Shown here piece by piece: positions 51,539 to 64,000 of a stretch of DNA of 64,000 bases. Source of the stretch: Acidobacteriota bacterium (GTDB lineage: Bacteria; Acidobacteriota; Vicinamibacteria; Vicinamibacterales; JAKQTR01). Every line of letters begins with the position of its first letter. Within the stretch, counting starts at the first letter, position 1. The position numbers and the translations under genes were made by a program. The DNA is taken from positions 124,001-188,000 of the forward strand of contig JAPKZQ010000003.1 of the NCBI GenBank assembly GCA_026393675.1, read 5' to 3'. The notes under the pieces were generated by a model. That model had not been told where the DNA came from. It worked only from the letters and a program-made list of their open reading frames with translations, and did not search any database.

Positions 51539-52629
51539 CGACGCCGCGCGTGCGGTTCATGCACCTCAAGCCGGGCGAGGAAGCGCCGGCGGTCGACGCG
51601 GCCATCCGCCGCGTCATCGATCGCGGGTGGTACGTGCTCGGCCCGGAGGTCGAGGCTTTTGAGCAGGCGTTTGCGGTGGCGTGCCACGCCTCGCATGCGA
51701 TCGGCGTCGGGACCGGCACCGACGCCATCGCGATCATTCTGCGCGGACTGGGTATCGGCGCCGGCGACGAGGTCATCACGACGCCGCTGTCGGCGGTGTA
51801 CACCGCGCTGGCGTGCATGATGGTGGGCGCCCGGCCCGTGTTCGCGGATCTCGATCCCGCGCGGCTGACGCTGGATCCGGCCGCGGTCGAATCGCAGATC
51901 ACGCCGCGCACGAAGGTCATCCTGCCCGTTCATCTGTATGGGCAGCCCGCCGACATGCGCGCGATCATGGCCATCGCCTCACGGCATCAACTCGCCGTTG
52001 TCGAGGATTGCTGTCAAGCGCACCTCGCCACCTGCCAGGGGCAGCCCGTCGGCAACTTCGGCGTCGCAGCCGCCTACAGCTTCTACCCCACCAAGAACCT
52101 CGGCGCGCTGGGTGACGGTGGCGCGATCACGACCAACGACGCCGCCCTCGCGGCGAAGGTGAAGCGTGTGAGAAATGGCGGCCAGACCGATCGCTACCAT
52201 CATGTGGAGATGGGCGTGAACAGCCGGCTCGATGAAATGCAGGCGGCGATCCTCTCCGCCCGGCTGCCGTATCTGGCCAAATGGACCAGCGCCAGACGCG
52301 ACGTGGCTGGCCAGTACCGGCGCCTGCTCGCGGGTGCGCCCGTTGACGTGCCGCCCGAATGCGACAGCGGCCACGTCTATCATCTGCTGCCCATCCTGTC
52401 AGCATCCAGGGACCGGCTGCAGACATGGCTGCGTGACCTGGGCGTCGAGACGCTGATTCACTATCCCGTGCCCATTCCGCGCCAGCCCGCGCTCGCGTCG
52501 GAGAGCCCTGGCGTCTGCCCGGTCGCCGACCGAGTCTGCGCCCAGATCCTGTCGGTGCCACTCTACCCAGGCATTCCGGAGCCGGATGTCGAACTGGTGG
52601 CGAACGCCATTTCCCGGTTCACGCCCTGA
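51535..52629 (+). CDS. DegT/DnrJ/EryC1 family sugar aminotransferase
   Basis: This 364-residue PLP-dependent fold type I enzyme installs an amino group on a nucleotide-linked keto-sugar. The PLP lysine is Lys187 in YSFYPTKNLGALGDGGA. GVGTGTDAI binds the cofactor phosphate, EDCCQAHLA holds the Asp contacting the pyridine nitrogen, and NSRLDEMQAAIL is the family helix. It overlaps the preceding epimerase by 4 nt, so a ketose intermediate made by that enzyme is a likely substrate. Amino donor is expected to be glutamate. Confidence 0.92.
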   Translation: MTTPRVRFMHLKPGEEAPAVDAAIRRVIDRGWYVLGPEVEAFEQAFAVACHASHAIGVGTGTDAIAIILRGLGIGAGDEVITTPLSAVYTALACMMVGARPVFADLDPARLTLDPAAVESQITPRTKVILPVHLYGQPADMRAIMAIASRHQLAVVEDCCQAHLATCQGQPVGNFGVAAAYSFYPTKNLGALGDGGAITTNDAALAAKVKRVRNGGQTDRYHHVEMGVNSRLDEMQAAILSARLPYLAKWTSARRDVAGQYRRLLAGAPVDVPPECDSGHVYHLLPILSASRDRLQTWLRDLGVETLIHYPVPIPRQPALASESPGVCPVADRVCAQILSVPLYPGIPEPDVELVANAISRFTP

Positions 52630-52633
52630 CATC

Positions 52634-55207
52634 ATGCTCAGGGCCATCGCTGGTGTGTTCGTCATCGCGTACCTGCCGGGTGCGCTGATCTTCCGTCTGC
52701 CAGCTGGCGACAGGACACGGCGGTTCTCGCTTCCCGCCGAGGAACGTGCGTTCTGGGCCGTCATCATCAGCGTCGGCGTCACGACCATGGTGGCGTTGGC
52801 GCTGACGTCGACCGGTGTCTACACGCTTGGCCGGCTCGTCGTTGGCGATCTCGTGCTGGCTGGCGTGGCGGCCGCGATGATCGCGATGAGACGGCGCGGC
52901 GCGCCCGCCGGTACGCGTGCGCCGAAACCGACCCGATTGGCGCTGATGCCGGTGGCCCTCGTGGTGCTGGGGCTGTTTCTCTTCTTCCCGCCCGCCGAGT
53001 ACCTCATGGGCGGCAAGGACCCGGGCACCTACATCAACGAAGGCATCCAGATCGCGCAGCATGGCTCCTGGACGATTCCAGACACGACGCTGGCGTTGCT
53101 CCCGGCCGACAGCCGCGGGTTGTTCGTCTCCCCGGATGCGGAGAGCATCAACCAGGGCACGAACTTCATGGGGTTTTTTGTTCTCGATTTCGATCGAGGC
53201 ACAGTTGTCGGTCAGTTTCCGCACGCGTATCCCGTGTGGATTGCGATCGGCTACGGCCTCGGCGGCGTCACTGGCGCGCGCTCTGCCATCGGTTTCTGGG
53301 GCCTGCTTGGCGTGCTCGCGGTGTACTTCGCATCGGCGCGGCTGGTGGGTCGATTGCCGGCGTTTGCAGGCACGATCCTTCTCGCGATCAACGTGGCCGA
53401 CGTCTGGTTTGCACGGTACCCGAACTCGGAGTTGATGCAACAGGCGCTGCTGTTTGCGGGCATGCTCGCCCTGGTGCGTGCCGTCGGCGACGAAGACGCG
53501 CTCTTCGGAGCGGTGGCCGGCGTGCTCCTGGGGGTGCAGCTCTTCGCCCGCATCGACACGCTTCTGTTGCTGATGGCGATCGGCGGCGGCATCCTGCTGC
53601 TGGTGGCGGACGGCAAACGTCCACGGTGGTCGTTCTGGCTACCGCTCGCGATACTGACGGGGCTGGCGGGCCTGTACTACGTGGGGCCGATGAAGTACTA
53701 CGCATCCACACCGTTAGCCTTCCTTCACGGACCCGCCGGCGTACTTGCCGCGACGGCGGGATTGACGGCCATGGGGTTCGGCATCCACTTCGCCGCGCGC
53801 CGCTGGCCGGTCGGCGTCCTCTGGTGCCGGCGCTGGCTCCCGCGTGTGCTCGCCGTCGCTGTCGTCATGGCCTTCGCCTACGGCTACTTCTGGCGCGTCC
53901 CGCACGAGACGATTCGCGACTACGCCGCCGGCGTCACGCTGCGTCAGGGATTGGCCGCCAACGACGCGTACTCGCTGAAACACTATGCCTGGTACGTCGG
54001 CGCGGCCGGCCTCTTTGCAGCGGTGCTCGGGCTGGCAGTCGTCACGTGGCGATCGTTCTGGCGGGACCCGGTGATGCTGACCGTCGTGATGTCGCTCTCC
54101 TGGTTCTTCTTCTACAAGACCCGAATCGTGCCCGAACACTTCTGGCTCGCGAGGCGCTATCTTCCGGTCATTCTGCCCATGACGTGCGTCCTGGCCGCCA
54201 CGGGCGCCCTGCTCGGTGTGCAGATGTGGTGGGAACGCCGCGCCGCGGCGCGGCCCGGAGCGCACCGCCGCCTCTGGCCGGCCATCTGTTACGCGATCGC
54301 CGGCACAACGTTTATTGGATGGCTCGGATGGCAGTACGCGACCGCGACGATCGCCATCGCCGGCCACGTCGAGTACGCGGGTCTGGCCGCACAACTCGAC
54401 ACCCTGAGCCGTCGATTCGGCGATCGCGATCTCGTGCTGGTCGAATCGCGCAACTCTTCGGACGCACACGTGCTGGCCGCGCCGCTCGCGTACATCTACG
54501 GCCGCCACGTGCTGCAGGTGTTGTCCCCGCGACCGGATCGCGCCGCCTTCGATCGCTTCTGTCAGTGGGCGATCGGGACGTTCGATCGCGTCTACTTCGT
54601 CGCCGACGGCGGCACCGACATCACGCCGAGCGGAATCACCATCACACCGGTGGCCAGCCAGAGCTTCGAGATCCCGGAATACGAGTCCGCGTTGAACGCG
54701 TATCCTCGAGGCATCCGGCAGAAGAAGTTCTCCCTCAGCGTGTTCCAGTTGTCCCGATCCGACGAGCCCGCCGTCAAAACGGACATCGATGTGGGGACCC
54801 TGGACGACGTGTGGGTGTTGCGGTTCTATGCGAAGGAGCATGAGGGTGACGTCAACTTCCGCTGGGTTCGCAACATGTCGTTCGTGTCGCTGATGGGCAT
54901 CGCCCCCGACAGCCGCGCCGTCACACTGAGGATGAGCAGCGGCGGACGTCCTCCGCGCGCCGGTGCCGCGCGTGTCCAGGTGTATCTGAACGATCATCTG
55001 CTCGGCGACGTGGAGGTCGCGGATGGCTTCCACGACTACACGGTGCCCATCACACCCGCCATCGCCGACGAGGCTGCGCGCAAGCCGGGAGCGTCCGTCT
55101 TGCGCCTGATGTCTACGACGTGGTCGCCGAAGCAGATCCTTGGGGGCCCGGACGACCGTCAACTCGGTGTCATGCTCGATCGGGTTCGAGTGGAACGAAA
55201 CCGCTGA
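52634..55207 (+). CDS. Large polytopic membrane glycosyltransferase-like protein
   Basis: This 857-residue protein has some 13-15 TM helices in residues 1-600 and a soluble extracytoplasmic C-terminal domain (about 610-857) of beta-rich character. The N-terminal pair of helices (LPAEERAFWAVIISVGVTTMVALAL) recalls DUF1616-type domains. The next loop, MGGKDPGTYINEGIQIAQHGSW, places Asp in the position of the PMT catalytic acid. I infer a polyprenyl-phosphate-sugar transferase; the C-terminal part could bind the acceptor. ATG 52634 lies 4 nt after the aminotransferase stop. Confidence 0.65.
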   Translation: MLRAIAGVFVIAYLPGALIFRLPAGDRTRRFSLPAEERAFWAVIISVGVTTMVALALTSTGVYTLGRLVVGDLVLAGVAAAMIAMRRRGAPAGTRAPKPTRLALMPVALVVLGLFLFFPPAEYLMGGKDPGTYINEGIQIAQHGSWTIPDTTLALLPADSRGLFVSPDAESINQGTNFMGFFVLDFDRGTVVGQFPHAYPVWIAIGYGLGGVTGARSAIGFWGLLGVLAVYFASARLVGRLPAFAGTILLAINVADVWFARYPNSELMQQALLFAGMLALVRAVGDEDALFGAVAGVLLGVQLFARIDTLLLLMAIGGGILLLVADGKRPRWSFWLPLAILTGLAGLYYVGPMKYYASTPLAFLHGPAGVLAATAGLTAMGFGIHFAARRWPVGVLWCRRWLPRVLAVAVVMAFAYGYFWRVPHETIRDYAAGVTLRQGLAANDAYSLKHYAWYVGAAGLFAAVLGLAVVTWRSFWRDPVMLTVVMSLSWFFFYKTRIVPEHFWLARRYLPVILPMTCVLAATGALLGVQMWWERRAAARPGAHRRLWPAICYAIAGTTFIGWLGWQYATATIAIAGHVEYAGLAAQLDTLSRRFGDRDLVLVESRNSSDAHVLAAPLAYIYGRHVLQVLSPRPDRAAFDRFCQWAIGTFDRVYFVADGGTDITPSGITITPVASQSFEIPEYESALNAYPRGIRQKKFSLSVFQLSRSDEPAVKTDIDVGTLDDVWVLRFYAKEHEGDVNFRWVRNMSFVSLMGIAPDSRAVTLRMSSGGRPPRAGAARVQVYLNDHLLGDVEVADGFHDYTVPITPAIADEAARKPGASVLRLMSTTWSPKQILGGPDDRQLGVMLDRVRVERNR

Positions 55208-55213
55208 GGCGCC

Positions 55214-56443
55214 GTGCTGCACATTGCTGACGCCCGGGAACGGCGGATGGTCGCCACGGCCGACGCGCTGCTGCGAGTGGCAAGCGCGATCCGTCGGAAG
55301 CACACCCGGCCATCGCGCGCCGGGATCCGGCGCGTCCTGGTGCTGCGACTCGAGCGCATCGGCGACTTGATGATGTCGTTACCAGCCCTGCATGCGCTTC
55401 GGCAGCTCGCCCTGCAGGCGCAGATCGATCTGGTGACCGGATCCTGGAACGAACCTCTGGCGCGCCTCATTGCCGGGATCGACCGGATCGAGACGATTGA
55501 CGCGCGATGGTTGAGTCGCGGAGCGGACGGCCTGGGGCTCGCCGCGCTGGCACGCCGCGCCTGGGCCTGGCGCAGCCGCCGCTACGATGTCGCCATCAAT
55601 CTCGAGGGCGACATCCGCAGCAATTTTCTGATCGGTCTTTCCGGCGCCCGATGGAAGGCGGGCTTCGACGTGGCCGGCGGCGGGCCGCTGCTCGACGACG
55701 CGGTGGAGTTCAAACCCGCGGAACATACCGCGACAAACGGCGTCACCCTTGTCGCCACAGCGCTTGGCGAAGAGCTGACCACGAGAGGGGCGCGCGTCGG
55801 CACGGCGCTGGAGACGGCATCGGCGCTTCCCCGCACGGGACTCCTCCTGCCGGAAGACGCCCGGGAGCGCGCTGAACGGCTTCTCCACGCAGAGGCGCAC
55901 CGGACATCACCAATGGTCGGCATCCAGGTCGGCGCCGGTCGGCTGGTCAAGCAGTGGCCCGCCGAACGGCTGGCTGCGGTGGCCGGGCGGCTCGTATCGG
56001 CGTTCAATGCGACCATCGTCCTGACAGGAGCGCAGGAAGACCGCGCGGCTGCCGATGTCCTGCGCGCAAATCTTCCCCAGTCGGCCGGCGTGATCGATCT
56101 GGTCGGCGCGCTCGACCTGGTCACGCTGGCCGCCGTGCTGGCGCGGCTGTCGCTGCTCATCACGCCAGATACGGGGCCGATGCACCTCGCTGCGGTTGTA
56201 GAGACGCCGGTCGTCGCGATCTTCGGTCCGGCCTCGCCTGAACGCTGGGGTCCCCTGTCGCAGCACTGCCGAATCGTCAGGGTCGATCTGCCCTGCAGTC
56301 CCTGCAATCGAATCCGGCGTCCTCCGGCGCGATGCGTGGGCCACACGCCGGATTGCCTCGCGTCCATCCGGGTGGACGATGTCTATCGAGCCGCCACCTC
56401 GCTTCTCGAAAGCGCGGCGGCGCCGGGACTAAAACCGTCGTGA
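55214..56443 (+). CDS. Family 9 glycosyltransferase (ADP-heptose:LPS heptosyltransferase-like)
   Basis: This 409-residue GT-B enzyme has the GT9 N-terminal motif VLVLRLERIGDLMMSLPALHAL and the donor-site segments GIQVGAGRLVKQWPAERLAAVA and ITPDTGPMHLAAVVETPVVAIFGPASPERWGP. It ends with a Cys-rich tail (CSPCNRIRRPPARCVGHTPDC) often seen in heptosyltransferase-like proteins. It could add heptose to an LPS-type core. No heptose synthesis genes are in the window, so another donor is possible. Start GTG 55214 has GAGG four nt upstream. Confidence 0.86.
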   Translation: MLHIADARERRMVATADALLRVASAIRRKHTRPSRAGIRRVLVLRLERIGDLMMSLPALHALRQLALQAQIDLVTGSWNEPLARLIAGIDRIETIDARWLSRGADGLGLAALARRAWAWRSRRYDVAINLEGDIRSNFLIGLSGARWKAGFDVAGGGPLLDDAVEFKPAEHTATNGVTLVATALGEELTTRGARVGTALETASALPRTGLLLPEDARERAERLLHAEAHRTSPMVGIQVGAGRLVKQWPAERLAAVAGRLVSAFNATIVLTGAQEDRAAADVLRANLPQSAGVIDLVGALDLVTLAAVLARLSLLITPDTGPMHLAAVVETPVVAIFGPASPERWGPLSQHCRIVRVDLPCSPCNRIRRPPARCVGHTPDCLASIRVDDVYRAATSLLESAAAPGLKPS

Positions 56444-58281
56444 CAGACGACGCCCTGATCCTCATCGAAACCGCGGGCGGCAGCCGACAGGTCAGGCTCG
56501 GCGACTATCTGTCTCTGGACGAAATCGAGCAGGCCGACCGCGATGCGATCGGCTGGATTAAACGTGTCCGCACCGCCGACATCGCAGGCCGCCCGCTGCG
56601 CGAGCAGCTCACGTACCGCGGGGAGTCGCTGTGGTGGTTTGTCGAGATCTACCTCCACCGCATGCGCGTCATCGAAATCCTGCATCGCGCGGTGACGGCC
56701 ACCGAGAACCTGTTCCGGACTGAGCAGCCACGTTCGGTGACGCTCGTCGACGGCGACGCAATCGCCCAATCGGTCGTCAAGCAGGGCGCGCGGCGCCACG
56801 GATCGGCGTTTCACGGCGCGTCGAGCGGCGCCTGGTTCCATGCTCGCCGTCTGGCCGCCACGATCATCAAAGGTGTCGCCTTTCTGGGGCAGGCATTCGT
56901 CTCGCATCTGCGAGTCCATCACAGACACCACGCACCGGCAGGTGGCCGGATTGCCATCGCCGCGTTCGTGCATGCCGCGTTCTGGCGCTCGACGGCGGGC
57001 CGCGAGGCGTACGTCGGCCCCGTGCTCAAGGAACTGGTGGCGCGGGTCCCGCCCTCCGATCTGGTCTTTGTCGGACTCGGGCCGCGCACGGTGTTTCGCG
57101 CGCGCACGCTCGCCAGCCAGGTTCGCAACTGGAAGGGCGTCCCGCCAGACGTATGCTCCATCGAGGGCTATGCGGGGCTGCGCGCCATGCGCGGCTCGTT
57201 CCGCTATGCCATGACGAGCGGTCGTGTGCGCCGGTGGTTGTGGCAAAGCGTGGACCTTCGTCGCGCCGCCGTGATCGGCGGGTACGACACGTGGCACTTC
57301 GTTCGTCACGAACTGGCCGGCGTCGCGTACCTGCAGTTGCCCTGGTCTGTCCGGATCATGGATGAAACCGCCGCGGCGCTGGACCACCTGCAACCGCGGC
57401 TGGCGCTGACCTACGCCGAGGCCGGCGGATGGGGCCGCGCCCTGGTCATCGAGGCCCGCCGGCGTGGCATCGCGGTGTGCGGGCTGCAGCACGGTTTCAT
57501 CCATCGCCATTGGATGAACTACCTCCACGATCCGGATGAGATGGCGCCGGCGGCTGGCTCGCCGGGATTCCCGCGGCCCGACCTGACGTTGCTGTTTGAT
57601 CGATTTGCCATCGAGCACCTGGTGACGCGCGGGTCGTTTCCCGCCTCGTCGCTTGGCATCATGGGCAACCCGCGGCTGGATGAACTGGCCGAAGCCGCCA
57701 GTCGGCAGACCGACGAGACGCGGCTCGCGACACGCCGCCGCCTGGGCGTCGATCCGGAGGCACGGGTCGTTCTGCTGGCCACGAAGTATCGCGAGCGGGC
57801 GCACGCCGCGCTGCAGGCGTTGTGTGACGCCGTGCGGTCGATGCCGGGCGTCCACCTGGTCGTCCGCTGCCACCCGGCCGAAACGGCGGGGCCGTACCTG
57901 ACGCTCGCCCGCGGGGCATCCACGATCTCGGTGGCGCCGGCCGATGTCGATCTGGTTTCGTCGCTGGCCGTGTCGGATCTTGTCGTCACCGTGAATTCAA
58001 CCGTGGCGCTCGAAGCCATGGCGCTTGGGGTGCCTGCGCTCGCATTGAATCTGCCGAACTACCTGACGCCCTTTGTCGACGCCGGCGTGATGTACGGCGC
58101 CGCCTCGCCCGACCACGTGGCGCCTCTGCTTCGACAAGCGCTGTCAGACGACCCATCGCGGAAGGACTTTCGCGCACGGCAGCAGGCGTTCATGGCAAAA
58201 TACGACATGCTGCCTTCCGGATTGGCTGCTGATCGAGCCGTCCGCGCAATCTTGACGCTCACCCATTCAACAGGCGGGTAG
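56440..58281 (+). CDS. Putative capsule-type GT-B glycosyltransferase
   Basis: This 613-residue soluble protein has a C-terminal half matching the donor domain of polysialyl/CDP-glycerol-type transferases: GLQHGFIHRHWMNYLHDPDEM, LGIMGNPRLDEL, VVLLATKYRE, VVRCHPAETAGPYL and SDLVVTVNSTVALEAMALGVPALALN. The N-terminal half is a poorly known helical domain. Such proteins often use CMP- or CDP-linked donors, which fits the CMP-sugar genes just downstream. Start GTG 56440 overlaps the previous stop (GTGA). Specific function is unknown. Confidence 0.7.
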   Translation: MTDDALILIETAGGSRQVRLGDYLSLDEIEQADRDAIGWIKRVRTADIAGRPLREQLTYRGESLWWFVEIYLHRMRVIEILHRAVTATENLFRTEQPRSVTLVDGDAIAQSVVKQGARRHGSAFHGASSGAWFHARRLAATIIKGVAFLGQAFVSHLRVHHRHHAPAGGRIAIAAFVHAAFWRSTAGREAYVGPVLKELVARVPPSDLVFVGLGPRTVFRARTLASQVRNWKGVPPDVCSIEGYAGLRAMRGSFRYAMTSGRVRRWLWQSVDLRRAAVIGGYDTWHFVRHELAGVAYLQLPWSVRIMDETAAALDHLQPRLALTYAEAGGWGRALVIEARRRGIAVCGLQHGFIHRHWMNYLHDPDEMAPAAGSPGFPRPDLTLLFDRFAIEHLVTRGSFPASSLGIMGNPRLDELAEAASRQTDETRLATRRRLGVDPEARVVLLATKYRERAHAALQALCDAVRSMPGVHLVVRCHPAETAGPYLTLARGASTISVAPADVDLVSSLAVSDLVVTVNSTVALEAMALGVPALALNLPNYLTPFVDAGVMYGAASPDHVAPLLRQALSDDPSRKDFRARQQAFMAKYDMLPSGLAADRAVRAILTLTHSTGG

Positions 58282-58303: not shown

Positions 58304-60493
58304 ATGGACGACGTCAGATTCGGACTCGTGGGGTGCGGTCGCGTGTCGACACGACACGTGGATGCGCTGGTGCGGCACGTGCCGGGGGCACGCCTGGTCG
58401 CGGTGTGCGACATCGTCCCGGAACGCGCGCAGCGGTACGGCGCGCAACTGGGCATCCCGGCGTTTGCCTCGGCCGCCGAGATGTACCGGGCGGTTGACAT
58501 CGACGTGGTCGACATCGCCACGCCGAGCGGCGACCACTATGCGCGCGCCATGGAGGCGCTCGCGCACGACAAACACGTGGTCGTCGAAAAGCCGGTCGCG
58601 CTCAGGCCAGAGCACGCGCAGACGATGATTCGGGAGGCCGCCGGCCGCGGCTGCCAGTTGTGGGTGGCCCACCAGAACCGCTACAACCGGGCGCTGTCGC
58701 GGGCCAGGGCGGAGGTCGCCTCCGGGCGTCTGGGCAAACCGGTGCTGGGGACGGTGCGCGTCCGGTGGTCCCGCGATCAGTCGTACTACGACGGTGACAA
58801 CTGGCACGGCACGTGGTTGATGGATGGCGGCGTGACCTCCCAGCAGGCCATTCACCACCTCGACGCGCTGCTGTGGTGCATGGGGCCCATCGAGTACGTC
58901 GACGCCTCGTGCGCGACGCGGCTGGTGCGGATGGAATGCGAAGACCTCGCGGTGGCGACGCTGCGGTTCAAGAGCGGCGCGCTCGGGATCATTGAGGCCA
59001 CCACCGCCACGCGGCCACGCGACATCGAAGCGTCGCTCTCGGTGTTGGGCGAAGGCGGCGTGGTCGTGCTCGGCGGCCTGGCGATGAACCGGATCGAGCA
59101 CTGGGAATTCGCCGACACGCGCGACTACGACGCGACGGTCAAGACCGATTACTTCGAATACGTGCCCAACGCGTACGGGTTCGGCCACGACACGCTGTAC
59201 AACCGGGTGGTCCGATCCGTCCGGGATGGCGGCCCGATCGAGATCCCGGCCGACGAAGGCCTCCGATCGATCGAGTTGCTGCACGCGATCTACGCCAGCC
59301 ACGAGCGCGGCGCGCGCGTGGTGATGGACCAGAGCCCCGCATCGCGGAAACTGGGTCTGCGGGCCATCACGATCGATGCGTCGACCTCGGCCACCGGCGG
59401 CGCTCAGGCGATTGCCGCGTGCCTCTCGAATCGCATCGACGAACTGGCTCGCGCCGATCGCTACGTCGCCGGCATCATCGGCGAGCAGCCATCGCGCACC
59501 GCCAAGAGCCCGAGCATCTGGAACCACGCCATCCGTCAACTCGGCGTCGACGCCTCGTACGTCTCGTTTGATGTGGACGCCGGGAAGCTCGCGCCGCTGG
59601 TGCGGGCGTTGCGCGCCTGGCCGCTGTACGTCGGCGGCAGCGTGACCATGCCCTACAAGGTCGAGATCGCGAAGCATCTCGACGACCTGACGCCGGCGGC
59701 CAGGCTGATTGGCGCCGTCAATACGATCTTCCGGAACCCAGAGGGCCGACTCATTGGCGACAACACGGATGGGGCGGGAGCCGTCGCGGCACTGGTCCGC
59801 GGCGTCGGCGGGGACGCACCATTCATCCCGTCGCTCGCCGGCATGCGCGTCCTGCTGGTGGGCGCCGGCGGGGCCGGGCGCGCGGTTGCGGTCGCCCTCG
59901 CGGACGCGATCGGTGAGGGGTCGCTCCTCATCATGAGCCGCACGCCGGCTCATGCCGATGAGGTGGCCGCGCTGGCACGCGCGCGACATCCGCGCGTGAC
60001 ATCCGCGACCGTCGAGACGATGCCGACCCGGATGGCCGGCATCGATCTGCTGGTGAACTGCACGGCGTGCGGCCAGGTGGGCCTGCGGACCGCGGGCGGA
60101 CATCTTGCTGTGACGCTCGAACCGTACTCACCGCTGGCCGACGTGTCCCCGACGAGCGTGGCCAGGGCGGCAACCGACGCGGACACGCTTCGGGCCTGGC
60201 TGGCCAGCAACCTCGACGGCATTGAGCGCAACACGCGCGCGTCACTCAGCCTGCTGATGGAGCTTCCTTCCTCGGCCCGGGTGTTTGATATCGTCTACGC
60301 CCCCGCCGAGACCGTCCTGCTGCGCCAGTCGCGGATGACGGGACATCCGGCCCTCAACGGCAAGCTGATGAACCTCCAGCAGGCCGTGACCGCGATGTTT
60401 GACGTCGTATTCAAGGCCTACTTCAACGAACGAGGCCTGGCCACCGACCAGACGCGGCAGGCGATCCTCCGAAGCATGACCGAGGTATGGTAG
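58304..60493 (+). CDS. Gfo/Idh/MocA oxidoreductase fused to a shikimate dehydrogenase (AroE) domain
   Basis: This 729-residue two-domain protein joins domains I have not seen together. Residues 1-345 form a WlbA-like NAD oxidoreductase: GLVGCGRVSTRHV, EKP at 95-97 and His184-His185 after GGVTSQQAI. WlbA enzymes oxidise UDP-GlcNAc-uronate at C3. Residues about 385-729 are AroE: Ser402 (TAKSPSIWN, first Ser of SxSP lost to Ala), VTMPYK with catalytic Lys452, GAVNT with Asn473, GDNTDG with catalytic Asp489, GAGGAGR at 520-526 and NLQQA with Gln693. Both active sites look usable. No frameshift or internal start is apparent. It precedes a CMP-sugar synthetase by 0 nt. Confidence 0.9.
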   Translation: MDDVRFGLVGCGRVSTRHVDALVRHVPGARLVAVCDIVPERAQRYGAQLGIPAFASAAEMYRAVDIDVVDIATPSGDHYARAMEALAHDKHVVVEKPVALRPEHAQTMIREAAGRGCQLWVAHQNRYNRALSRARAEVASGRLGKPVLGTVRVRWSRDQSYYDGDNWHGTWLMDGGVTSQQAIHHLDALLWCMGPIEYVDASCATRLVRMECEDLAVATLRFKSGALGIIEATTATRPRDIEASLSVLGEGGVVVLGGLAMNRIEHWEFADTRDYDATVKTDYFEYVPNAYGFGHDTLYNRVVRSVRDGGPIEIPADEGLRSIELLHAIYASHERGARVVMDQSPASRKLGLRAITIDASTSATGGAQAIAACLSNRIDELARADRYVAGIIGEQPSRTAKSPSIWNHAIRQLGVDASYVSFDVDAGKLAPLVRALRAWPLYVGGSVTMPYKVEIAKHLDDLTPAARLIGAVNTIFRNPEGRLIGDNTDGAGAVAALVRGVGGDAPFIPSLAGMRVLLVGAGGAGRAVAVALADAIGEGSLLIMSRTPAHADEVAALARARHPRVTSATVETMPTRMAGIDLLVNCTACGQVGLRTAGGHLAVTLEPYSPLADVSPTSVARAATDADTLRAWLASNLDGIERNTRASLSLLMELPSSARVFDIVYAPAETVLLRQSRMTGHPALNGKLMNLQQAVTAMFDVVFKAYFNERGLATDQTRQAILRSMTEVW

Positions 60494-61231
60494 GTGTCTG
60501 GTGACGAGGTGATTGTGCCTGTGTCCGACCGACGCGTGGTGGCCATCATTCCGGCTCGTGGCGGTTCGAAGAGCCTGCCCGGCAAGCACCTGAAGCCGCT
60601 GGCCGGGAAACCCCTGCTGGCCTACGCGATTGAGCCCGCCCTCGCCTCCACGCTCATCGACCGGGTGATCATCACGACCGACTCGGCGGAGGTCGCGGAC
60701 GCGGCGCGCGCGCTTGGTGCGGAAGCCCCGTTTCTGCGTCCAACCGATCTGGCTGACGATGCGGCGACCACGGAAGCCGCCCTGCAACACGCGGTACTGT
60801 GGCTGGACGAACACGACGGGTACCACGCCGACATCGTCGTGTTTCTCACCTGCACGGCGGTGTTTCGCGAACGGGCCTGGCTCGACGAAGCCGTGCGCCG
60901 TCTGCTGGCTCGCCCGGAACTGGATACGGTGTTCGTGGGCCTGCGCACCCACAAGAACTTCTGGCGCCGCGTCGGATCCGATTGGGTCCGCCTGGCGGCC
61001 GACATCCCGTACGGCTCGCGCCAGCATCGGGAGCCGCTCCTGCGCGAAGAGACGCCGACGGCGTGCGCCACCAGGGCCGATCTGATCCGTGCGGGACGGC
61101 GCGTGGGTCCGAAGGTGGATATCATCGAAACCGACGATGACCGGGTGATGCTGGATCTGCATTCCGACTTCGACTTGTGGCTGGCTGAACAGGTGCTGGT
61201 CGAATGGCCGAAACTCGGCCACAAACTATAA
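60494..61231 (+). CDS. CMP-acid-sugar synthetase (acylneuraminate cytidylyltransferase family)
   Basis: This 245-residue enzyme transfers CMP from CTP to a 2-keto-3-deoxy acid sugar. The signature [16 protein letters not shown] lies near residues 18-33, followed by [26 protein letters not shown] and the C-terminal [26 protein letters not shown] with the metal-binding Asp. Starts are ambiguous: GTG 60494 directly follows the fusion gene stop, but GTG 60509, 60515 or 60521 also fit. It is related to NeuA, PseF and LegF; the exact sugar is not readable. Confidence 0.9.
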
Positions 61232-61245
61232 TCGGGGATCGAACG

Positions 61246-62109
61246 ATGAAAGACATTTCGCCGAACGATTTGCGCGACAACATCCCGCTGGTCGCCAAAC
61301 AGCACGACGGCCACAAGACGACAGTGCGCGTCGGCAACGTCGTCATCGGCGGCGACGCGTTGGTGATCATCGCCGGCCCCTGCGCGGTCGAAACGGAGGA
61401 GTTGACGCTGGATATCGCCAGGGCCGTCAAGGCCGCCGGGGCGACCATGTTGCGGGGCGGGGCGTTCAAGCCGCTCACCTTCCCCTATCGCCGCGGATTG
61501 ATGATGGAGATTGGCGAACCCGGTCTGGCGTTCCTCAGACGCGCGTCTGATGAAACGGGTCTGCCGGTCGTCACCGAGGTCATCGATGTCCGACTCGTCG
61601 AGAAGATCGCGCAGTATGCCGACATGCTCCAGATCGGCGCACGAAACATGGCCAACTTCCCGCTGCTCCAGGAGGTGGCGCAAGCGAAGAAGCCCGTGCT
61701 ATTGAAACGGCACTTTGGCGCGAGCCTGCGCGACTGGCTCGGGGCGGCTGAGTACCTGTATTACTACGGCAACACGCAGGTCGTCCTCTGCGAGCGCGGC
61801 GTGGTCGCGCCCCACACGCACGAAGTGACCTCCCGTTTCATCGTCGATCTGCAGGTGGTGCCCGCGGTGCGCGAGTACTCCCATTTACCGGTCATCGTCG
61901 ATCCGAGCCATTCGACGTTCAAGCGGCGCTACGTGGCCCCGATTGCCTGCGGCGCGATTGCCGTGGGCGCCGATGGCATTATCCTCGATGTACATCGCGA
62001 ACCGGAGAAGGCCGCCGTCGATCCGCTGCAGGCATTGAGCTATCAGGCGTTTGGCGATCTAATGAAGACGATCCGGGGCCTGGCGCCGGTGTTGGGGCGC
62101 ACCGCATGA
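61246..62109 (+). CDS. DAHP synthase-like (type I-beta) aldolase with altered acceptor site
   Basis: This 287-residue TIM-barrel enzyme condenses phosphoenolpyruvate with an aldose. Recognised parts are [10 protein letters not shown] with metal ligand Cys46, LRGGAFKP with Arg70 and Lys75, [23 protein letters not shown] with Lys154, LCERG with Glu183, VDPSHSTF with His222 and [11 protein letters not shown]. Two departures stand out: the erythrose-4-phosphate motif KPRTS reads KPLTF, losing the Arg, and the metal Glu of the (I/V)EVH motif is Asp248. The acceptor may therefore not be erythrose 4-phosphate. It has GGGGA 8 nt before ATG 61246 and overlaps the NeuB-like gene. Confidence 0.87.
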
Positions 62110-63101
62110 GTACCGCGTCCACGGCGATGAGCGGCGTGCCGTTCGAAGTGCTCGTCTCGGTCGACGAGTGGCGCGACGATGGCATCGTCACGGCACGGGG
62201 CCTGCTGTCGCACCTGGCCGACGTCGGCGCGACGGCGGTGAAGATCATCGCGTGCCATCCCGATCACTATTCGACCCGCCCGGTGCGGGTCACCCACGCA
62301 CTCTCGAAGATCGATCCGCGGTTGGCCGCCGTCACGAATGGGGCACCGGGCGCGTCGGCCGATTTGCTGGCTGAGATCCGGTCGCACCTCGGTCGTGTGC
62401 CGCTGGTGGTGGCGCCCTACGACATCGCGTCGTGCCTGGAAGCGGCTACGGCTGGCATCGACACCTGGCAGGTCGACGAGGCGATGAACGGCAACGTGCC
62501 GTTGCTCGAGGTGCTGGCAGGCGCCGCCAGGCGGGTGTATTTCTGCACCTGGGGCTGCACGCAGCGGGAGATTGATGCGGCTCGCACGATCCTGCACGCC
62601 ACCGAACTGGTGTTTCTCCATCGCGTGCGCGGCAGCCCGGCCTCGGCCCTGATGCGTGACTGCGCGACAATCGCCCACCTCTCGGGCCTGGGTCACCGCG
62701 TTGGCTGGAAGGAACCCCGTCCGACGCGCAGCCATGCGATTATCGCCTTGGCCGTTGGCGGATCGGTGGTCGAGATCCCCGCCATTACCGGTGATCTCGA
62801 TGCCAGCGAGGCGGCGGCTCGCGTCGCCATTCGCATCGCCAGACTTCGCGGCCTCGCCGCGTCGAGCCGGCGGGTGCTGCTGGGCTATTCCCCGGACGAA
62901 CTGGACCAGGTCGACGACCTGCGGCCGGGGCTGGTCGCGGCGTGTGCCATCCCCGCGGGCACGGTGCTGACGCGCGACATGATTGCGTTCAAGGCACCGG
63001 CCGTCGGGCTCTCGGTCGAGCACCTGGGCCTCGCGATTGGACGCAGGGCGCTGTACGACCTGCGCCCGAACGAGCCGCTCACCTTCGGGGTGGTGTTATG
63101 A
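62106..63101 (+). CDS. Divergent NeuB-like protein with C-terminal SAF domain
   Basis: This 331-residue protein has an SAF (antifreeze-like) domain at about 274-331 ([41 protein letters not shown]) as in sialic acid synthases. It also has a shortened TIM-barrel-like region with NeuB-like order: [18 protein letters not shown] resembles STGMAxxxEI, and [16 protein letters not shown] takes the place of VIEKHFTLDR. The family Glu near the N-terminus (ExGxNHxG) and the metal histidines are missing, so synthase activity is doubtful. It may be a partner or lid for the upstream aldolase, whose stop it overlaps (ATGA). Confidence 0.72.
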
Positions 63102-63784
63102 AGGCCGGTATTGTCATCCGCACGAAGAACGAGGAGGCATGGCTCGCGCAGGTGCTCGGCGCGATCGGCCGGCAGGTGGATGTCGAGACCGACGTCGTGG
63201 TGGTGGACAACGACTCGACCGACAGAACCCTGGAGATTGCCAGCCGCTACCCGTGCCGCGTGGTATCGATCTCGGACCGCGACTTCTCCCACGGGCGCGC
63301 GCTTAACCTGGGCATTCGGGAAACCCCCGCCGACCTGGTGGCCATCCTGTCGGGCCACTGCATTCCCGCCAACGAGCGGTGGCTGCTGCGCTTCTCCGCG
63401 AACTTCAGCCAGGCGTCGATCGCGGGCGTCTATGGGCGTCAGGAGCCCCTGCCCGACAGCACCGCGTTCGACAAGCGCGATTTGTGGACGACGTTTGGCC
63501 GCGACCGACGCACGCAGCGGCACGATCACTTCTTCCACAATGCGAACTCGATGCTCCGGCGCGCCGTCTGGGCGGAGGTGCCGTTCAACGAGGATCTGCC
63601 CGGCGTCGAGGATCGCGACTGGGCCCGGAGCGTGCAGGATCTGGGCTGGCAGATCGCGTACGAACCGCACGCCAGCGTCTACCACCACCATGGCATTCAT
63701 CAGGGACGCGACGAGGGCCGCGCCGCGCGCGTGGCGCGCGTGATCGAGCTCATCCAGAACCGGACCACTGGAGAATCCTTGTGA
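63098..63784 (+). CDS. Family 2 glycosyltransferase
   Basis: This 228-residue GT-A enzyme carries GIVIRTKNEEAWLAQVLGAI, VVDNDSTDRTLEIA and HFFHNANSMLRRAVW, then NEDLPGVEDRDWARSV (the catalytic-base ED region). The usual DxD position reads LSGHCIP, replacing the Asp pair with GHC, a pattern common in rhamnosyl- and abequosyl-type GT2 proteins. No TM segments are present. It overlaps neighbours on both sides (ATGA upstream, GTGA downstream). Confidence 0.83.
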   Translation: MKAGIVIRTKNEEAWLAQVLGAIGRQVDVETDVVVVDNDSTDRTLEIASRYPCRVVSISDRDFSHGRALNLGIRETPADLVAILSGHCIPANERWLLRFSANFSQASIAGVYGRQEPLPDSTAFDKRDLWTTFGRDRRTQRHDHFFHNANSMLRRAVWAEVPFNEDLPGVEDRDWARSVQDLGWQIAYEPHASVYHHHGIHQGRDEGRAARVARVIELIQNRTTGESL

Positions 63785-64000
63785 GCAGCGAACCGGGCAC
63801 GCGAACGCTTGGCATCATTCCTGTCCGCGAGGCTGACGTGCTCGCCGCTGGCGAGCCCATCCTGCTGGCCGGACGCCCGTTGCTGGCGTACACGATCGAT
63901 GCCGCGCGCGAGGCGTCCCGCCTGGCCCGCGTCGTCGTCAGCACGGATGGCCACGCCGCAGCCGAACTGGCGCGGGCGCTGGGCGCCGACGTGCCCTTCA
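63781..64000 (+). CDS. Partial second cytidylyltransferase-like protein
   Basis: The reading frame starts at GTG 63781 and is open to the window end (73 codons). TLGIIPVREADVLAAGEPI, LLAGRPLLAYTIDAARE, RVVVSTDGHAAAELARALGADVPF follows the fold of CMP-acid-sugar synthetases. However, the nucleotide-binding loop ARGGSKxxPGK is replaced by VREADVLAAGE, keeping only Arg. It could be a degenerate, regulatory or differently specific nucleotidyltransferase. The C-terminal half is outside the window. Confidence 0.75.
   Translation, partial: MSSEPGTRTLGIIPVREADVLAAGEPILLAGRPLLAYTIDAAREASRLARVVVSTDGHAAAELARALGADVPF

Follow-up and report, generated by a model that had tools for sequence, protein, structure and literature searches.

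Linked DAHP synthase-like, AroE-like and cytidylyltransferase-like genes in an Acidobacteriota surface-glycan locus: a possible route to a CMP-activated acid sugar

We examined a run of six genes at the end of a 64,000-nucleotide stretch of DNA (the window; contig C3:124001-188000) from the 3.25-Mb, 46-contig genome of an Acidobacteriota bacterium of the order Vicinamibacterales. A first-pass annotation had described these genes as overlapping or abutting and had read them together as a possible pathway for a surface acid activated with cytidine monophosphate (CMP). All six were found with the named domains on the + strand by Pfam and NCBIfam searches, the glycosyltransferase through weak matches plus homology. 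They run head to tail from 58304 to about 64545, the last gene continuing beyond the window:

58304..60493, + strand: Gfo/Idh/MocA-AroE fusion, 729 aa (PF01408, PF02894, PF08501, PF01488)
60494..61231, + strand: cytidylyltransferase 1 (CT1), of NeuA/PseF/KdsB type (PF02348, 80 bits; TIGR03584 PseF, 122 bits, below cut-off)
61246..62109, + strand: synthase resembling 3-deoxy-D-arabino-heptulosonate 7-phosphate synthase (DAHPS), type I-beta catalytic barrel (PF00793, DAHP_synth_1, 201 bits; TIGR01361, 303 bits)
62106..63101, + strand: degenerate NeuB-like barrel with SAF domain (PF03102, 22.4 bits, cut-off 22.1; PF08666, 39 bits)
63098..63784, + strand: family 2 glycosyltransferase (GT2; weak NCBIfam matches, homology to a Sulfurovum GT2 domain)
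about 63781..64545 (within the window to 64000), + strand: cytidylyltransferase-like protein (CT2; partial PF02348 match)

The fusion and CT1 genes are directly adjacent, CT1 and DAHPS are separated by a 14-base gap, and 4-base overlaps occur at the three remaining junctions (DAHPS/NeuB-SAF, NeuB-SAF/GT2 and GT2/CT2). The six genes are translationally coupled. For the DAHPS-like gene, the start at 61204 given earlier is less probable than the one at 61246, which opens with the conserved MKDIS and is used here.

A set of AroE, DAHPS and GT2-CT2 genes recurs in four other genomes, three from Vicinamibacterales and one from Sulfurovum. The nearest relative at the locus is a Vicinamibacterales metagenome-assembled genome (L009) that has the same Gfo-AroE fusion, 73% identical over its length. 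In Sulfurovum (L010), Gfo, AroE and DAHPS are separate, GT2 and CT2 are fused, and a CT1-type enzyme lies two genes on. The L023 locus (genome G028) carries DAHPS, AroE, NeuB-SAF, GT2 and CT2; on that contig its CT1 relative (L070, 47% identity) lies at a distance of about 19 kb. The L024 locus (genome G367) comprises a GT2-CT2 fusion, Gfo, a CT1-type enzyme, a LarA-like racemase, DAHPS and AroE. A CT1-type enzyme is thus found in the same region in all five loci, although in G028 at that distance, and gene order differs between the loci. DAHPS identity to the window copy falls from 81% (L009) through 71% (L023) and 57% (L024) to 47% (L010).

The DAHPS-like protein exceeds the NCBIfam DAHPS cut-off (303 vs 268 bits) and is far closer to DAHPS than to 3-deoxy-D-manno-octulosonate 8-phosphate (KDO8P) synthase (348 vs 94 bits, NCBIfam). 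Its AlphaFold model has the I-beta DAHPS fold, with the Aeropyrum pernix (1vs1) and Thermotoga maritima (1rzm) enzymes as best matches, and it shares with these the barrel, 44-52% identity, and the metal and phosphoenolpyruvate (PEP) residues. Unlike them it has KPLTFPY in place of KPRT, KRH in place of KRG and an HTH...SR insertion, and it is short, a catalytic barrel without the regulatory domain. In the T. maritima motif PEP is bound by the Lys and the first Arg, and erythrose 4-phosphate (E4P) by the R and T of KPRT, which are the motif's second Arg and its Thr (PMC6362186). In the alignment, KPRT is replaced by KPLTFPY, with Arg changed to Leu, in all five cluster DAHPS proteins, and KPR is present in each of the 15 other distinct DAHPS proteins examined, cellular and viral. 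The five KPL-type proteins are monophyletic, with support of 100/99. The PEP and metal residues (Cys, His, Glu/Asp and Asp site) are kept throughout, except that L024 has AGPN for AGPC. Two further changes near the site are common to the cluster proteins: KRH stands in place of KRG, and an insertion of three residues, with a conserved HTH...SR, follows CERG. The shared substitution at the E4P motif argues for a repurposed condensing enzyme, as the earlier annotation had supposed. A heptulosonate product, also part of that proposal, is only one possibility, and the loss of the E4P-binding Arg argues against plain DAHP; that the AroE step would follow the condensation and that CMP would be added to this product are likewise hypotheses. 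Our strongest inference, drawn from sequence, is that this protein would be a PEP-condensing enzyme with an altered acceptor, placed among enzymes of CMP-sugar use. Its acceptor might carry no phosphate, given that the operon encodes no phosphatase and that the Arg expected to bind E4P is missing.

The fusion joins a Gfo/Idh/MocA dehydrogenase (approximately residues 1-350) to an AroE homologue (approximately residues 383-729). In the AroE half the catalytic Lys/Asp pair is retained, as are Asn and Gln in the shikimate site; TMPYK, GAVN, DNTD and QQAV are conserved. It scores below the NCBIfam equivalog cut-off for shikimate dehydrogenase (166 vs 252 bits with the best model). The residues of the shikimate dehydrogenase site, which include a pair of Ser that binds the shikimate carboxylate, are listed in PMC6270726. 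In all five cluster AroE proteins the first Ser of the site is changed to Ala and HN to WN, whereas the housekeeping copies compared keep both. The N59-to-Ser change of the AroE half was not retained as a marker, since the AroDE protein of the same genome carries the same Ser. The second-best PDB relative of this half is 5-ketofructose reductase (7cok), so that the AroE family includes a sugar reductase and the fold can act on sugars. The cluster proteins resemble AroE and 7cok in their substrate and NADP domains, catalytic Lys/Asp and site Asn/Gln; they differ in Ser13/14 to Ala, in HN to WN, in being fused to Gfo in two loci, and in an insertion of about 50 residues in the C-terminal part (L024 excepted). 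The Gfo half matches 3q2k and 3q2i over its full length (274 and 259 bits; the next entry scores 90 bits). We take these two entries to be WlbA, a UDP-N-acetylglucosaminuronic acid 3-dehydrogenase. The Sulfurovum Gfo matches them too, and the L023 Gfo does not. On these matches the Gfo half is a predicted WlbA-like sugar dehydrogenase, less constant across the loci than AroE and DAHPS. Unlike in the WlbA pathway, it is fused to AroE and does not directly adjoin the aminotransferase and acetyltransferase of that pathway. The simplest use of the fusion would be an oxidation-reduction pair acting at one centre of an acid sugar.

These enzymes could also be seen as a carbocycle set. DAHPS would then boost the supply of DAHP, the housekeeping AroB would convert it to 3-dehydroquinate, and Gfo and AroE would yield an atypical cyclitol acid, resembling quinate or shikimate, for the glycan. 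The combination of DAHPS, AroE and an inositol-dehydrogenase-like Gfo fits such a route, as do the retained catalytic residues of AroE, and four of the five genomes have one AroB elsewhere (G000, the source genome, and G028, G396 and G840; none was found in G367). However, no AroB or dehydroquinase was seen in any of these loci, and the genomes with AroB have just one copy, so the cluster differs from aminoshikimate-like pathways in having no dedicated dehydroquinate synthase. Loss of the E4P-binding Arg is unexpected in a DAHP maker, the carboxylate-binding Ser of AroE is lost, and the cytidylyltransferases known in the CT1 family act on an anomeric hydroxyl. We therefore regard the carbocyclic route as unlikely.

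The source genome also encodes ordinary counterparts of several of these proteins. It has three DAHP_synth_1 proteins: the operon copy, a KdsA on C45, and a C42 copy with an N-terminal extension that adjoins TyrA-like and TrpB-like genes. The idea that the operon encodes the only DAHPS of the genome was rejected in view of the ordinary C42 enzyme, an outcome that leaves the earlier proposal standing on this point. Besides the one in the operon fusion, a second AroE domain occurs in an AroDE fusion encoded on C39, making two in all. C4 carries an intact NeuB gene next to two flagellin-like genes. Since DAHPS, KdsA, AroDE and NeuB are all available separately, the operon copies are extra. One might suppose that they are simply additional shikimate-pathway enzymes, with AroE and a short DAHPS insensitive to feedback boosting the supply of aromatics, for instance to provide the glycan with an aryl group. 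The lack of a regulatory domain and the score above the DAHPS cut-off suit this explanation, but the clade-wide changes of KPRT to KPLT and of the AroE Ser to Ala do not. Nor do the full coupling to CT1, GT2 and CT2 and the absence of a chorismate-using gene among the six, and it seems to us quite improbable.

A KdsB-type enzyme is likewise encoded elsewhere (C45 KdsA/KdsB). Together with the NeuB locus on C4, this raises the prospect of two unrelated modules, in which DAHPS and AroE stand apart while CT1, GT2 and CT2 handle a nonulosonate of known type or 3-deoxy-D-manno-octulosonic acid (Kdo) made at those loci. The variable gene order between loci points the same way. However, members of the two supposed modules are interleaved in the coupled gene order (fusion, CT1, DAHPS, NeuB-like, GT2, CT2, with 4-base overlaps), and the co-occurrence check found DAHPS, AroE and GT2-CT2 together in five loci from two phyla. 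DAHPS and AroE are thus not neighbours by chance, which bears out the earlier annotation, and a split into two modules seems very improbable. As a separate observation, the C4 region (L007:4571-14283, G000:C4) is a NeuB/aminotransferase/SpsF-like glycosylation locus adjoining two nearly identical flagellin genes, which suggests nonulosonate-modified flagella in the source organism.

Only one of the two cytidylyltransferases proposed earlier appears to be functional. CT1 retains the nucleotide loop IIPARGGSK; it has relatives at L009 and L070, and its nearest types are in L024 and L010. CT2 is without the N-terminal CTP loop in all five loci, and PF02348 matches it only from profile position 19-21 onward in G000, G840, G396 and G367. 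Because this loop is missing, CT2 is probably not an active cytidylyltransferase and looks like a pseudo-enzyme. The GT2 assignment is based on weak NCBIfam glycosyltransferase matches of a longer open frame and on homology to the Sulfurovum (L010) GT2 domain, which itself matches PF00535; identity between the window GT2 and those of the four other loci is 47-78%. GT2 and CT2 are fused in L010 and L024, and CT2 therefore probably serves the transferase. The operon protein that follows DAHPS has a NeuB-like barrel and then a SAF domain, as seen by Pfam and fold matching. The best fold matches of its model are NeuB, PseI and SpsE, at a model confidence (pLDDT) of only 62. When it was aligned with the genome's own NeuB, the AEIG, DHS and EKH-type catalytic segments proved to be replaced in the window and L009 copies and partly kept in L023. 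The description of this protein as degenerate is upheld, and it is a probable pseudo-enzyme that looks catalytically dead. A different arrangement occurs in G028, where a single 598-aa frame encodes a fusion of NeuB-SAF with an SpsF-like cytidylyltransferase (L066:1357-3153; G028:C47 near 48 kb).

Sialic, pseudaminic and legionaminic acids and Kdo are CMP-activated ulosonic acids and key surface sugars. To our knowledge, those described so far come from NeuB-type or KdsA-type condensing enzymes. We propose that the operon is a mobile surface-glycan cassette for a 3-deoxy-2-ulosonic acid, or a closely similar cyclic acid, activated with CMP, a reading to which we give an even chance. In this proposal the DAHPS-like enzyme would condense PEP with an aldose other than E4P, the acceptor perhaps being unphosphorylated, as for NeuB. 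The WlbA-like and AroE-like dehydrogenases would adjust a hydroxyl of an acid sugar; plausibly one would oxidise and the other reduce the same centre, thereby inverting it. CT1 would load the acid onto CMP, and GT2, with the apparently dead cytidylyltransferase CT2, would transfer it; the NeuB-like protein would be a non-catalytic helper or a relic. The gene set, its coupling and recurrence, the presence of separate ordinary copies, and the kept catalytic and altered substrate residues are observed; from them we infer, as a hypothesis, every reaction of the pathway, the reaction order and the product.

Such a pathway would resemble those of the nonulosonates (NeuB/PseI/LegI, NeuA/PseF) in an implied PEP-type condensation, a NeuA/PseF-like CT1 for CMP activation and adjoining glycosyltransferases. 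It would differ in that the NeuB-type protein is degenerate and the likely condensing enzyme DAHPS-derived. With the Kdo pathway (KdsA, KdsC, KdsB) it would have in common a cytidylyltransferase of related type and an aldolase from one superfamily, but the operon aldolase belongs to the DAHPS subfamily, not to KdsA, and the operon has no KdsC-like gene. The acid-sugar enzymes near the relatives fit a ulosonic acid. L010 (15134-18026) encodes a DHDPS/KdgD-like aldolase, a CT1-type cytidylyltransferase and a galactonate-dehydratase-like protein of the enolase superfamily, possibly further routes to 3-deoxy-2-keto acids within one cluster. In L024 (10856-12184) a LarA-like (nickel-pincer) 2-hydroxyacid racemase, unusual for a glycan locus, lies between CT1 and DAHPS.

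Several points weigh against the proposed cassette. The Gfo partner is not constant, that of L023 being unrelated, and the NeuB-like protein is missing from L010 and L024. The operon lacks a phosphatase, yet one may be encoded elsewhere. The acceptor-side loops of the DAHPS model (78-82 and 187-192) have pLDDT below 50, too low for a description of the pocket. The loci known number only five, four of them from one order, and we know of no GT2 enzyme that uses a CMP-sugar.

If the proposal is correct, a third condensing lineage, derived from the aromatic pathway, would widen the known chemistry of bacterial glycans, and aroF/aroE annotation of such genes would be misleading. The motifs KPLTFPY (DAHPS) and A[KR]SPxxWN (AroE) would allow such loci to be found by sequence. 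More tentatively, and with less confidence than we attach to the cassette itself, surface glycans of some Acidobacteriota and Campylobacterota may contain an unseen class of acid, ulosonic or even carbocyclic. Its synthase would derive from DAHPS and its reductase from AroE, and the acid would be activated with CMP and transferred by GT2 with a pseudo-cytidylyltransferase module.

The set was found in 4 of 162 genomes of the order, being missing from the one same-genus genome compared, in 3 of 396 genomes of a phylum sample, and in 1 of 397 Campylobacterota genomes. None of 398 Bacillota genomes had it (E <1e-100), a sample without an internal positive control. This rare and patchy spread suggests a horizontally moved glycan module. 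Plasmid records queried with AroE, DAHPS and GT2-CT2 gave ordinary relatives and no orthologous cluster, and viral contigs queried with DAHPS and AroE alignments gave ordinary KPR-type DAHPS and no AroE relative. Several IMG/VR viral contigs (L033-L045) do encode DAHPS homologues, with KPRT wherever the motif was read; these may be auxiliary metabolic genes. Gfo homologues at L011 and L012 were dropped, as no adjoining AroE or DAHPS was seen, L011 ending with Gfo. Literature searches linking polysaccharide loci to DAHPS, shikimate dehydrogenase or cytidylyltransferase found no description of the cluster, most subscription journals lying outside these searches.

Upstream of the six genes, Pfam identifies glycosyltransferases, an NAD-dependent epimerase and a DegT aminotransferase, and the six genes therefore belong to a surface-glycan locus. 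The neighbour on the 5' side is a candidate glycosyltransferase of the same locus:

56332..58281, + strand: GT-B-like surface-carbohydrate protein (weak NCBIfam matches)

This protein weakly matches TIGR04396 (46 bits, cut-off 125) and the BFO_1060 glycosyltransferase family (33 bits, cut-off 200); L010 too has a TIGR04396 protein, there above the cut-off. Also within the glycan locus, at 52586-55207 of the window, lies an 873-aa hydrophobic protein without a Pfam match, possibly a membrane glycosyltransferase or polymerase.

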